DNA from: Sphingomonadales bacterium
GTDB taxonomy: Bacteria; Pseudomonadota; Alphaproteobacteria; SMXS01
Direction: 5' to 3'
Length of the DNA stretch: 64,000 nt
Assembly (NCBI GenBank): GCA_022844405.1
Contig: JALHLV010000006.1
Location: 62,001 to 126,000 of the forward strand
Below are positions 23,883 through 29,426 of this stretch, one piece after another (the first letter of the stretch is position 1; every line of letters starts with the position of its first letter). The position numbers and the translations under genes are program-made. The notes beneath the pieces are model-generated. The model had not been told where the DNA came from, searched no databases, and saw only the letters and a list, made by a program, of their open reading frames with translations.

Positions 23883-25238
23883 ATGTCAGCAGTCCTGCAA
23901 GATACCACCCCCGCCCATCACCGCGGCAATGGCCGTCCGGTCACCAAGGAACAGACCCTCACCGACCTGAAGGTGACGGGAAGCATTCCCCGCGAGCTCG
24001 ATGGCCGCTATGTGCGGGCGGGCGCCAACCCGCTCAGCGGCACCAGCGACCATCCGTTCTTCGGCGACGGCATGATCCACGGCGTGCGGCTGCGCGACGG
24101 AAAGGCCCAGTGGTACCGCAACCGCTATGTGCAGACGCCGTTCATCAAGAATCCGGGCCTGAACATCCTCGATCCGGCGGTGATGATGGACATGACCGCG
24201 TCGAAGGCCAATACGCATGTCATCGGTCATGCGGGCAAGATCCTCGCGCTCGAGGAAGGCCACTTTCCCTATGAGATGGACGGCGACCTGAATACGGTCG
24301 GGGCGACGGACTTCAATGGCGCTCTCAAGGGCTCGTTCACGGCGCACCCGAAGATCTGCCCGGTGACCGGCGAGCTGATCGCCTTTGGCTACGCGGCGTT
24401 CCCGCCCTATCTGCGCTATCTGCGCGTCTCCGCCGACGGAAAGCTGGTGCAGACCGAGAACATCACCGTCGGCGGGCCGACGATGATGCACGATTTCAAC
24501 ATCACCCAGAACCATGTCATCTTCATGGACCTGCCGGCCGTGTTCAACCTGCAGGCGGCGATGAGCGGCGAGATGCCGATCCGGTGGGACGACAATTATC
24601 CGGCGCGCCTCGGTGTGATGCCGCGCAACGGCACGGACGCGCAGGTGGTCTGGTACGACATCAACCCGTGCTATGTCTTCCACCCGATGAACGCCTATGA
24701 GGACGGCGGCAAGATCGTGATCGACGTCGCCCGCTTCGACTATATCTGGCGCCACTCGACCATGGATTTCCCGGACCCGGTGCTCTGGCGCTGGACGATC
24801 GACACCGCCACCGGCCGCGTTCACGAGGAACAGGTGGACGACCGCCCCGCCGAGTTCCCGCGAGTCGCCGACAGCGTCGTCGGCCTCAAGCACCGTTTCG
24901 GGTACATGATGAGAAGCGTGAAGGGCTTCCTTTCAAGCGATCCCGAAAAGTCGTCCGGCGGTATCCGCAAATACGACCGGCAGACAGGTTCGCATTCGGA
25001 CATCGACTTCGGTGTCGGCCGCCAGGGCGGTGAGCCGGTATTCGCGCCGCGGGCCAATCCCAAGAGCGAAGACGATGGCTACCTGATGACCTACGTCCAT
25101 GACGCGAACACGGACACCAGCCAACTGGTGATCATGGACGCGGCATCGATGGACGACACGCCGGTGGCGGTTGTCGAGCTGCCGCGCATCCCGAGCGGTT
25201 TTCACGGCAGCTGGGTTCCGGCTTCGGTGGTTGGCTGA
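23883..25238 (+). CDS. Carotenoid cleavage dioxygenase family protein
   Basis: A 451-residue seven-bladed propeller dioxygenase with the four iron-binding histidines visible: H155 (TAHPK), H203 (MMHDF), H267 (VFHPM) and H441 (SGFHGSW). It should cleave a conjugated double bond with O2 and Fe(II). In non-pigmented bacteria many members act on lignostilbene-type phenolics rather than carotenoids. No carotenoid biosynthesis gene is present in the window, so a phenylpropanoid or apocarotenoid substrate is possible. AAGGAG precedes the ATG. It opens an accessory block inserted between the yajC group and nlpD, and is followed by a repeat element. Confidence 0.92.
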   Translation: MSAVLQDTTPAHHRGNGRPVTKEQTLTDLKVTGSIPRELDGRYVRAGANPLSGTSDHPFFGDGMIHGVRLRDGKAQWYRNRYVQTPFIKNPGLNILDPAVMMDMTASKANTHVIGHAGKILALEEGHFPYEMDGDLNTVGATDFNGALKGSFTAHPKICPVTGELIAFGYAAFPPYLRYLRVSADGKLVQTENITVGGPTMMHDFNITQNHVIFMDLPAVFNLQAAMSGEMPIRWDDNYPARLGVMPRNGTDAQVVWYDINPCYVFHPMNAYEDGGKIVIDVARFDYIWRHSTMDFPDPVLWRWTIDTATGRVHEEQVDDRPAEFPRVADSVVGLKHRFGYMMRSVKGFLSSDPEKSSGGIRKYDRQTGSHSDIDFGVGRQGGEPVFAPRANPKSEDDGYLMTYVHDANTDTSQLVIMDAASMDDTPVAVVELPRIPSGFHGSWVPASVVG

Positions 25239-25486: not shown

Positions 25487-27415
25487 TCACTTCTTCGGCA
25501 GCGTGTAGGCGATGATGTAATCGCCCAGCGGGCTTTGCAGCGCCATGTGGCCGCCGGCGGCGATCACCACGAACTGACGGCCGCTGGCCGGCGAGATGTA
25601 GGTCATCGGCGTCGCGTGGCCGCCGACCGGGAGCCTGGCCTTCCACAGGATGTCGCCGGTCTTCTGGTCCACCGCGCGCAGCGTCCGCTCCATGCTTGCG
25701 CCGATGAACACCAGGCCGCCGCGGGTGCTGACCGAGCCGCCGATGGCCGGCACGCCCATGGTCAGCGGCAGCATGGAGGGAATGCCCCACGGGCCGTTGT
25801 CCCTGGCGGTCCCCAAAGGCCCGGACCAGATCACCTTGCCGGTGGACAGGTCCACAGCGGTCAGCGAGGCATAGGGCGGATTGATGCACGGCACGCCCAG
25901 CGGCGACAGGAACGCGCTGGTCCTGGCGGCGAACGGCGTGCCTTCCTGGGCCTGGGCCTTGCGCGGAACATAACCCATCGGGCCAGCCTTGATGCCCATG
26001 GCGTCCGCTTCCTTGCGGGGGATCAGCCGGGTGTAGTTGGGCATGCGGCTCCAGTTGACGATCATGATCTGGCGCACCGGATCGACCGAAACGCCGCCCC
26101 AGTCGATGCCGCCCAGATAGCCCGGATGGGTGATCGACGGCCGGATTCCCGGCGGCGTCATCGGGCCGTCATAGCGCGCCTGCCTGAACTTGATGCGGCA
26201 CCAGAGCTGGTCGAACGGCGTCAAGCCCCACATGGACTTTTCCGTTAGGTCCGGCCCAGTGAAATCGGGCATGCCGGTCGAGAATGGCTGGGTGGGCGAC
26301 AGCCAGTCGCCGGGCGCGGGACCCTGCGGCACCTTGCGCTCCTCGACCTCTTTCAGCGGGCGGCCGGTGCGCCGGTCGAGCACGAAGACCTGGCCACGCT
26401 TGGTCGGCTGGATCAGCGCCGGCACCGGCTGACCGCCGATCTGCAGATCGACCAGGGTCGGCTGCGCGGGGACATCGTAGTCCCAGACGTCGTGATGGAC
26501 CGTGCGGTAGAGCCAGCGCAGCGCGCCGGTCTCGGCGTCGAGCGCCAGCACCGCGCTGGTGAATTTTTCGGATTCGGGCGTCCGGTGCGCCCCCCAATAG
26601 TCGGGCGTGGCGTTGCCCATGGGTGCGTAGACCAGGCCGAGCGACTCGTCGGCGCTCATCGGCGCCCAGGAATTGGGCGTGCCCAGCGTGTAGGTTTGGC
26701 CGGGCAGCGGCTCGCCGTGATATTCGGGCCGTCCCGGGTCGAACGCCCACGAGAAGGCGCCGGTCAGGGCGTCATAGGCGCGGATCACGCCGGGCGGCTC
26801 GTTCACATGCTGGTTGTCGGCCACCCAGCCGCCCATCACCACCCGGCCGCGGATGATCACCGGCGCCGAGGTGACGTAGTAGTAGTTCGGCTTCACCTCG
26901 CCCATGCCGGTCTTCAGGTCGACCATGCCGCCGGCGCCGAACCCGGCGCAGGGCTTGCCGGTGCGCGCGTCGAGCGCCACGAGCTGGGCCCTGGCGGTGG
27001 TGCTGAAGATGCGCTCGGCGCAGGCGCCGACGCCGCCAGGCACCTTGTAATAGGTGACGCCGCGGCAGGTGCGCCGGCGGTCGTTGGGCGCGGGCGGCTC
27101 CCAGCGCCAGCGCTGCGCGCCGGTTTCGGCATCGAGCGCGATGACCTGGTTGGACGGCGTGCAGATGTAGAGCGCGTCGCCGACCATCAGCGGCGTGACC
27201 TGCAGGTGGGTCTTCAGCGTCTCGCCCGGATTGGTGCGGTAGACCCAGGCCTGCTGCAGCCCGGACACGTTGGCGGGGGTGATCTGGTCGAGCGGCGAAT
27301 AGCGCGTGCCGCCCAGGTCGTTGCCGTAGTGATGCCACTCGCCGTCGGCCGCCCATGCCGAGGCGGCCAGCAGCGGCAGGGCGAAAGCGAGGGCGGTACG
27401 TCTGATCATGCGCAT
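25487..27415 (-). CDS. PQQ-dependent dehydrogenase, Gcd/quinate-shikimate family catalytic subunit
   Basis: A 642-residue quinoprotein propeller with a Sec signal peptide (RMIRRTALAFALPLLAASAWA). It matches the periplasmic domain of the membrane-bound glucose/quinate/shikimate dehydrogenases: TCRGVTYYKVPGG, SEKFTSAVLALDAETGALRW, VHHDVWDYDVPAQPTLVD, MWGLTPFDQLWCRIKF and GGIDWGGVSVDPVRQI. The family oxidises a sugar or polyol with PQQ and feeds electrons to ubiquinone. The usual N-terminal five-helix anchor is missing but is encoded by the gene immediately upstream. The ATG at 27415 is preferred because GGAGCG precedes it and a full signal peptide follows. Substrate unknown; no pqq genes are in the window. 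Confidence 0.92.
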   Translation of the reverse strand: MRMIRRTALAFALPLLAASAWAADGEWHHYGNDLGGTRYSPLDQITPANVSGLQQAWVYRTNPGETLKTHLQVTPLMVGDALYICTPSNQVIALDAETGAQRWRWEPPAPNDRRRTCRGVTYYKVPGGVGACAERIFSTTARAQLVALDARTGKPCAGFGAGGMVDLKTGMGEVKPNYYYVTSAPVIIRGRVVMGGWVADNQHVNEPPGVIRAYDALTGAFSWAFDPGRPEYHGEPLPGQTYTLGTPNSWAPMSADESLGLVYAPMGNATPDYWGAHRTPESEKFTSAVLALDAETGALRWLYRTVHHDVWDYDVPAQPTLVDLQIGGQPVPALIQPTKRGQVFVLDRRTGRPLKEVEERKVPQGPAPGDWLSPTQPFSTGMPDFTGPDLTEKSMWGLTPFDQLWCRIKFRQARYDGPMTPPGIRPSITHPGYLGGIDWGGVSVDPVRQIMIVNWSRMPNYTRLIPRKEADAMGIKAGPMGYVPRKAQAQEGTPFAARTSAFLSPLGVPCINPPYASLTAVDLSTGKVIWSGPLGTARDNGPWGIPSMLPLTMGVPAIGGSVSTRGGLVFIGASMERTLRAVDQKTGDILWKARLPVGGHATPMTYISPASGRQFVVIAAGGHMALQSPLGDYIIAYTLPKK

Positions 27416-27428
27416 GGTCCGCTCCATC

Positions 27429-27779
27429 TCACAGCAGCCCGCGCCGCGCCCATGGCATCAGCAGCCACAGGCCCAGAACGGTCAGCAGCAGGACCCGGGG
27501 CATGAGCTGCCAGCCGTCCAGCCCCACCTCCCAGATCGCCCAGCCCCAGGTACCGAGTAGGATCAGCAGAAACAGCCAGGCGCCCATGCGGCGGCCGCGC
27601 CAGAGCAGAATGCCGCAGACGACCAGCGCCGCGCCGGCGATGGCGTAGTAGAGCGCGCCGCCGAGCAGGGCGAGTTGGACGCCGCCGGCGGCAAGCACGG
27701 CGCCGATCAGCAACAGCAGCGCGGCGAAGAGTCGCGGCGGCCTCGCGGCCCGGTTGGCAGGCCCTGCCATCTCGATCAT
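27429..27779 (-). CDS. Membrane anchor of a split Gcd-like PQQ dehydrogenase
   Basis: A 116-residue protein with about four to five transmembrane segments. Its central sequence (LGGALYYAIAGAALVVCGI, then LLGTWGWAIWEVGLDGWQLMPR) matches the N-terminal membrane domain of Gcd-type PQQ dehydrogenases, normally fused to the catalytic propeller. The stop at 27429 lies 13 bp before the start of the catalytic gene in a different reading frame. GGGGGGA precedes the ATG at 27779. It probably docks the secreted dehydrogenase and passes electrons to quinone. The two-gene arrangement is the unusual feature. Confidence 0.82.
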   Translation of the reverse strand: MIEMAGPANRAARPPRLFAALLLLIGAVLAAGGVQLALLGGALYYAIAGAALVVCGILLWRGRRMGAWLFLLILLGTWGWAIWEVGLDGWQLMPRVLLLTVLGLWLLMPWARRGLL

Positions 27780-27890
27780 GAAACGTCCCCCCGCTTTTCA
27801 TGCCGCGCTTGTTCCGCGCGCTTTGGATGCGGCCACTGTAGCCAGATTGGCCGGCGGCCCGCCATGAAATCCTGTGTCAGGCCAGCTTGC

Positions 27891-29426
27891 TCAGGCCAAT
27901 CTGGGGCCGGGCCTGCCGTCCTCGACCACGAAGCGTTGCAGCGAGCGGCTGGGCGATGCGGGATCGGTCTGGTCCTCGACCATGCGCATGTCGGCCTCGA
28001 TGCCGTTACGGTCGAACGCGAACCGGACATAGCCCTGATGCGTGGTGTCGGAGAACCGCACATGCGGGTTCTCCTCGCCGGGCGCGAACAGGCCCGGCGG
28101 TAGCGTGCTGTTGGCCAGCGCGCTGGTGACGAACTCGCTGGCAATGACAGGCGAGGCTGGGTCGTTGAAGTCCGCCTTGACGTCGTTTGCCCAGAACGAG
28201 TGGATGTCGCCTCCGAAGAACACCGGGTTGCGCGGTGCGGCCCGGCGCAGCGAGCCAGTCAGGCGCCGGCGCGCAGCACCGTAGCCGTCCCAGCCCTCGT
28301 TCGACAGCGCCTCGCCGGGTCCTGCCTGCAGGTCCAGCCGGGCGAACGCGGTCTGCTGCGCCAGCACGGTCCAGCGGGCCTTGTCGCCCGTGAGACCCTC
28401 GTCCAGCCAGCGCTCCTGAACGGCGCCGAGCAGGGTCCGCTCCTCGGCATCCACTTCGGGGCAGTCCGTCACCCGCCGCCCGCCGAGCTGGCCGGGCACC
28501 GGGCAGGCCTGGTCGGAGCGGTACTGGCGGGCGTCGAGCACATGGAACGTCGCCAGGTCGCCCCAGGCGAGGCGGCGGTACATCTGCATGCCGCCCTCGC
28601 CCAGCATGGCGCTGGGCCGCAGCGGCATGTGCTCGAAATAGGCCTGGTAGGCGGCGGCGCGGCGGCGGCCGAAGATGTCGGGCGCCGTGCCGTCCTCGGG
28701 GATCAGGCCGGCATAGTCGTTCTGCACCTCGTGGTCGTCCCAGGTGACCACCCAGGGCGCGGCGGCATGGGCGGCACGCAGGTCGGCGTCGGATTTGTAG
28801 AGCGCATGGCGGGCACGGTAGCCGGCCAGATCCATGGGGATACCTGCGCCGAACGGCCGCACCGCCGTGCCGCGCGTCGGCGATTCGTAGATGTAGTCGC
28901 CGGCGTGGACGATCAGGTCCGGCTCGCCCGCCAGCATGTCCTTGTAGGCGGCGAAGTAGCCGTTCTCCCAGTGCTGGCACGAGGTGAGCGCCAGCTTCAG
29001 CCGCTCGGGCCGCTCGGGGACTGTCAGCGTGCGTCCGGCCGGGCTGACCGCCTTGCCGGCGTGGAATCGGTACCAGTAAGGCCGGCCGGGCCGGAGACCT
29101 TCGATCTCGGCATGGACGGAATGAGCGAGGTCGCGGATCGCCATGGCGCCGCCGCGATGGACGATGCGCCGGAAGCCCTCGTCCTCGGCCACTTCCCAGC
29201 CGACCGGGAGTTCAGGTTCGTCGAGCAGCGCGAGGTTTTCGCCGACCAGGCGGGTCCACAGCACGAAGCCGCCGGCCGAGGGCTCGCCCGACGCCACGCC
29301 GAGCGCGAACGGATCGGCCCTGAAGCGGTGCGATCCCAGGGGCACGGCCTGTACCGGCCGCAGCATGGACCACGCCACCGCCGCCGACAGACCACCGATC
29401 ACATTCCTGCGCGTGAAACCGTTCAT
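27891..29426 (-). CDS. phoD: PhoD-family alkaline phosphatase/phosphodiesterase, Tat-exported
   Basis: A 511-residue enzyme of the PhoD family. The twin-arginine signal is at the N-terminus (TRRNVIGGLSAAVAW). Mature-domain landmarks include DPFALGVASGEPS, LVLTSC-like KLALTSCQHWENGYF, DLIVHAGDYIYE, TWDDHEVQND, and FFGGDIHSFW, which supply the metal-binding Asp, Asn and His residues. It hydrolyses phosphodiesters or monoesters in the periplasm to scavenge phosphate. A GGGAGAGAG site precedes the ATG at 29426; the longer frame to 29588 lacks support. The tatABC export genes lie about 4 kb upstream. No clear Pho box was identified. Confidence 0.92.
   Translation of the reverse strand: MNGFTRRNVIGGLSAAVAWSMLRPVQAVPLGSHRFRADPFALGVASGEPSAGGFVLWTRLVGENLALLDEPELPVGWEVAEDEGFRRIVHRGGAMAIRDLAHSVHAEIEGLRPGRPYWYRFHAGKAVSPAGRTLTVPERPERLKLALTSCQHWENGYFAAYKDMLAGEPDLIVHAGDYIYESPTRGTAVRPFGAGIPMDLAGYRARHALYKSDADLRAAHAAAPWVVTWDDHEVQNDYAGLIPEDGTAPDIFGRRRAAAYQAYFEHMPLRPSAMLGEGGMQMYRRLAWGDLATFHVLDARQYRSDQACPVPGQLGGRRVTDCPEVDAEERTLLGAVQERWLDEGLTGDKARWTVLAQQTAFARLDLQAGPGEALSNEGWDGYGAARRRLTGSLRRAAPRNPVFFGGDIHSFWANDVKADFNDPASPVIASEFVTSALANSTLPPGLFAPGEENPHVRFSDTTHQGYVRFAFDRNGIEADMRMVEDQTDPASPSRSLQRFVVEDGRPGPRLA

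Follow-up and report, generated by a model that had tools for sequence, protein, structure and literature searches.

We investigated two adjacent genes on the reverse strand of the window, the whole 64,000-nucleotide stretch of DNA from a Sphingomonadales bacterium that was analysed here. The upstream gene (positions 27429..27779, reverse strand) is an open reading frame for an SldB-like membrane anchor of 116 amino acids, which ends in ...WARRGLL followed by the TGA stop codon at 27429-27431. Its ATG is preceded by a G-rich, Shine-Dalgarno-like stretch (27787..27792, reverse strand), and a G-rich stretch likewise lies upstream of the gene in relatives. The downstream gene (25487..27415, reverse strand), assigned with TIGR03074 and the Pfam PQQ family, encodes an exported eight-bladed propeller PQQ dehydrogenase of 642 amino acids. 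The earliest in-frame ATG of this catalytic reading frame lies at 27427, one base past the anchor stop codon; the ATG at 27415 is the likelier start, because GGAG (27422..27425, reverse strand), directly after the anchor stop, stands 6 nt before it, and because the relative G007 has lost the ATG at 27427 and kept that at 27415. We infer that the catalytic gene is translationally coupled to the anchor gene. The preliminary description was thus right in the extent of the 116-residue anchor frame, in the end of the catalytic frame at 25487 with its start at 27415, and in assigning the two genes to separate frames, each with a ribosome-binding site. As for the flanks, a PhoD-like phosphatase gene lies upstream of the pair (window 27891-29423), where phoD is present in some relatives and absent in others, and a carotenoid-cleavage-type dioxygenase gene lies downstream (window 23883-25238), at this place in the window genome only.

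Both chains were compared with the NCBIfam model TIGR03074, which describes the membrane-bound PQQ dehydrogenases of the glucose/quinate/shikimate family over 783 profile positions. As a result, the anchor aligned with positions 2-98 (E 3.4e-25) and the catalytic chain with positions 152-783 (E 2.9e-256), the latter scoring 852.2 bits, above the curated cut-off of 832.65; these E-values exclude a chance match for either chain. The catalytic chain also matched Pfam PQQ PF01011 (E 3e-239). The anchor is a homologue of the membrane-embedded domain of the fused Gcd enzymes, and the kinship that had been proposed for the small gene is borne out by its profile match. The two chains together leave positions 99-151 uncovered, corresponding to TM5 and the linker. 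Indeed, the anchor has four hydrophobic, predicted transmembrane helices and not the five at first ascribed to it, and where the fused enzymes have their fifth helix, the catalytic gene has its signal-peptide region; the split pair thus departs from TIGR03074 in lacking a five-helix N-terminal domain in one chain with the propeller. The putative Sec signal peptide, MRMIRRTALAFALPLLAASAWA (27350..27415, reverse strand), was judged by eye; its n-, h- and c-regions are conserved in the genus, and cleavage would probably occur after AWA. As read from the alignment, the predicted signal peptide is located at the former TM5 position, replacing TM5 of the fused enzymes, in which TM5 runs from cytoplasm to periplasm, as a signal peptide does. 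The anchor matched no solved structure, and among the matches listed for the catalytic chain there were other PQQ dehydrogenases and BamB only, none of them labelled as a membrane-anchored Gcd of the TIGR03074 type.

Alignment of the catalytic chain with E. coli Gcd demonstrated that D354, W404, D466, K493, N607 and H775 are all kept, as D204, W254, D316, K343, N458 and H627. Asp316 (numbered from the ATG at 27427; positions 26480..26482, reverse strand) and Lys343 (26399..26401, reverse strand) correspond to D466 and K493, which we take to be the catalytic base and a PQQ contact, respectively, both tied to ubiquinone/PQQ; the two equivalents are on the catalytic chain and not on the anchor. 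D730 is replaced by Glu in the window chain. The pair is therefore homologous to the fused Gcd/quinate family (TIGR03074) over the profile except for TM5 and the linker, with the active-site residues kept, but differs from it in consisting of two genes and in having a signal peptide instead of TM5. Furthermore, H262, which contributes to glucose specificity in E. coli Gcd, is replaced by Arg118, so that a substrate other than glucose is likely, presumably one of the polyol or cyclitol type.

The supply of the cofactor was addressed with the genes of PQQ biosynthesis. In eight genomes of the family f1 (G000, G001, G003-G005 and G007-G009), pqqC was not found, and pqqE gave weak radical-SAM matches only, which fall far short of the cut-off. 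Five genomes of acetic acid bacteria were clearly positive for both genes; genus g1, to which the window genome belongs, differs from these bacteria in that neither pqqC nor pqqE was found. External, scavenged PQQ is therefore the probable source of cofactor for the enzyme, as it is for E. coli Gcd. The f1 genomes encode several PQQ-type dehydrogenases.

The closest known counterpart of this architecture is SldB-SldA of Gluconobacter and Acetobacter, which is described in the literature as a PQQ-dependent sorbitol/polyol (glycerol) dehydrogenase with two subunits. In 2002 its activity was reported to need the upstream gene sldB, and Miyazaki et al. 2002 describe SldB as needed for the development of activity in E. 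coli. In the acetic acid bacterial pair L127, a four-helix SldB of 130 amino acids is followed by an SldA with a signal peptide. The g1 pair is alike in having a small four-helix anchor gene upstream, without TM5, and a catalytic gene with its own signal peptide downstream, and the propellers are about 46% identical. Since the same anatomy exists in the known SldB-SldA, the two-gene architecture is not new. However, the g1 catalytic chain falls in a clade separate from SldBA, and it lacks the long Pro/Ala-rich N-terminal extension of SldA. Our literature search for a gene-fission or TM5 mechanism in the Gcd family found nothing specific, only an analogy with the reductive dehalogenase RdhA/RdhB, in which an exported catalytic subunit is paired with a separate small membrane anchor and fused hybrids are reported from other lineages (PMC6797604). 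The split anchor arrangement is similar there, whereas the proteins and their chemistry are unrelated.

We also surveyed the split and fused forms more widely. Among 385 alphaproteobacterial genomes, 23 anchors were detected, four of which (genus g1) are split, while the other 19 continue into the propeller in one frame, two of these being broken further downstream. The 60 genomes of the acetic acid bacterial family yielded 12 split pairs, all of which were read, and a 398-genome sample of the phylum afforded two further pairs, L199 and L200. Three short anchor matches (G799, G486 and G650) were rejected, as one is without a nearby dehydrogenase, one is interrupted within the anchor and one is without a recognisable propeller. 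The window genome encodes a single anchor of the TIGR03074 type. It also encodes another Gcd-like propeller (L198:3369-5351, contig C14), which has a signal peptide and no anchor gene nearby, and anchorless propeller copies of this kind form a separate clade (L017, L020-L024, L029, L111, L112 and L114). One g1 member carries a conventional fused Gcd of about 840 amino acids besides its split pair (L009, G002:C82).

From these comparisons, the pair is quite probably an SldBA-like two-subunit, membrane-anchored PQQ dehydrogenase, whose ancestor would be a single-chain Gcd-type enzyme that split between TM4 and TM5. The upstream gene would provide the four-helix anchor subunit, and the downstream, translationally coupled gene the propeller subunit, which would be exported by Sec with loss of its signal peptide and would bind PQQ taken up from outside. 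By analogy with the fused relatives, the propeller may then dock on the anchor, on the periplasmic side of the inner membrane, where the enzyme would oxidise a sugar alcohol, a cyclitol or a similar alcohol and pass the electrons to ubiquinone. The anchor is possibly a separate quinone-reducing subunit, as had been suggested, but its putative role may equally be one of attachment or maturation. As to the origin of the pair, TM5 may first have shrunk to a signal-peptide-like segment, a state that the fused enzyme of sister genus g3 still shows; a stop and a new start would then have parted the two halves and left a cleavable signal peptide where TM5 had been.

That one fused gene has merely been broken here by sequencing error, frameshift or decay into a pseudogene might be thought from the difference between the two frames, and other members of the family (L115, L195, L196 and L202) are indeed broken. 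Those frameshift breaks look different, however, as they fall within a domain or a linker, whereas in the present pair TM5 is missing and not merely out of frame. Moreover, the anchor and catalytic genes are separate in 7/7 genomes of genus g1, five of which are at least 98% complete and one of which (G003) is assembled in two contigs, and the junction recurs in all of them, with the anchor stop, the Shine-Dalgarno sequence and the catalytic start conserved. The g1 anchors are 58-86% identical and stop just past a conserved basic ...RRGL/RHRL motif, and the gene order pcm-nlpD-(phoD)-anchor-catalytic-yajC is kept in the genomes with readable flanks. Purifying selection acts on both genes, dN/dS being 0.14-0.32 in the anchor gene and 0.12-0.28 in the catalytic one. 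Because the junction recurs throughout the genus and both genes are so constrained, the split is no sequencing error or frameshift, and a breakage is scarcely credible. The preliminary description had proposed a two-gene form of the Gcd family in which the catalytic chain is exported and the anchor is a protein of its own, and the profile coverage and the 7/7 genomes uphold it. It had also argued against a frameshift from the gain of an export signal; the absence of a frameshift stands, but the export signal replaces TM5 and is no unexplained extra. It is unlikely, though by no means absurd, that the catalytic chain works in the periplasm as a soluble dehydrogenase and that the small membrane protein serves assembly or maturation instead of electron transfer. 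The anchorless paralogue with its own signal peptide in the same genome (L023/L198) indicates that a propeller of this family need not have an anchor gene beside it, and the role of SldB in "activity development", as worded by Miyazaki et al. 2002, would fit maturation as well as electron transfer. On the other hand, the homology of the anchor with the membrane domain of Gcd in its fused form, and its conservation and constant adjacency to the catalytic gene in the genus, argue against this reading.

The number of origins of the split was examined in a propeller tree, in which the g1 pairs formed one clade (SH-aLRT 99-100) whose nearest relatives are the fused enzymes of the sister genus g3 (SH-aLRT 97 under LG+G4 and 92 under a mixture model). 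Unlike the g1 pair, the g3 enzyme is a single reading frame, and the propellers of the g3 fused enzymes (L042/L015 and L016) are 60-63% identical to that of g1. The search for genomes with the pair or with a fused Gcd, which had been called for earlier, thus returned the pair in all g1 genomes and fused forms in their g3 relatives. Both genera are placed among further fused enzymes, at a distance from SldBA. When all split sequences were forced into one clade, the AU test rejected the arrangement (p = 0.0002 with L186 included), and the p value was 0.035 when the long branch L186 was set aside and L086 included. We thus favour, without regarding it as certain, a split in g1 that arose separately from that of SldBA, and its site appears to be the last anchor helix, which became an export signal. 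A single ancient fission giving rise to both the g1 pair and SldBA, followed by re-fusion in g3 and the other fused relatives, would account for the shared anatomy and gene order, and L086, which is fused, has a TM5 resembling a signal peptide and sits inside the SldBA clade, suggests that re-fusion does happen. Both AU results speak against it, however, and the fused lineages between the two split groups would demand several re-fusions, so that we hold this course of events to be quite improbable. A second, divergent split pair of an acetic acid bacterium (L186, G400:C35) may represent a third origin; it shares about 50% identity with the window chain, and its place in the tree is unstable.

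Finally, the stretch between TM4 and the propeller was measured in the fused proteins, eight of which were left out as the motif rule failed for them. It comprises 21-22 residues in the two g3 proteins, compared with 41-82 in the other fused proteins measured. The g3 junctions read RRGL-SVLLIAGMGLTSMPDAVAA-GEEW and RRGL-AAIALIVAGGLMMPTSVQA-AGEEW, and the segments have a basic end, a short and weak hydrophobic core and an A-x-A-like site, their likeness to signal peptides having been judged by eye. In the AlphaFold2 model of L042 (g3), four confident helices were predicted (11-36, 42-58, 63-83 and 87-105), while the region at the TM5 position (112-141) had a pLDDT under 50 and no helix, although ordinary signal peptides and linkers are likewise modelled with low confidence. 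The control L044, with a normal TM5, gave a fifth helix at 120-144, at a pLDDT of only about 56-68. With the L042 model as query, a fold search matched the catalytic part to propellers only, some of them known PQQ propellers, and barely probed the anchor part. The g3 fused proteins with their shrunken TM5 are an apparent evolutionary intermediate, and this appears to be a new observation. L086 (L086:2458-4875, Sulfitobacter) is a fused SldB-SldA-like protein that carries a signal-peptide-like TM5 within its chain and branches amid split relatives; re-fusion or internal cleavage is possible for it.

More tentatively, and with more doubt than conviction, the conversion of TM5 into a cleavable signal peptide could be a general, repeatable and perhaps reversible route between one gene and two, in which the g3 proteins (and L086) would be precursors already cut into two subunits by signal peptidase, that is, living fission intermediates. 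The g1 pair and its fused g3 relatives thus offer a testable case of a last anchor helix becoming a signal peptide and of one gene becoming two. For annotation, where a protein matches only the propeller of this family, the DNA upstream should be examined for a small anchor gene before the protein is called soluble or truncated. The assemblies that hold L039, L040 and L041 bear the names Candidatus Kuenenia or Rhizobium, which look wrong, as their contigs are close to the window genus.
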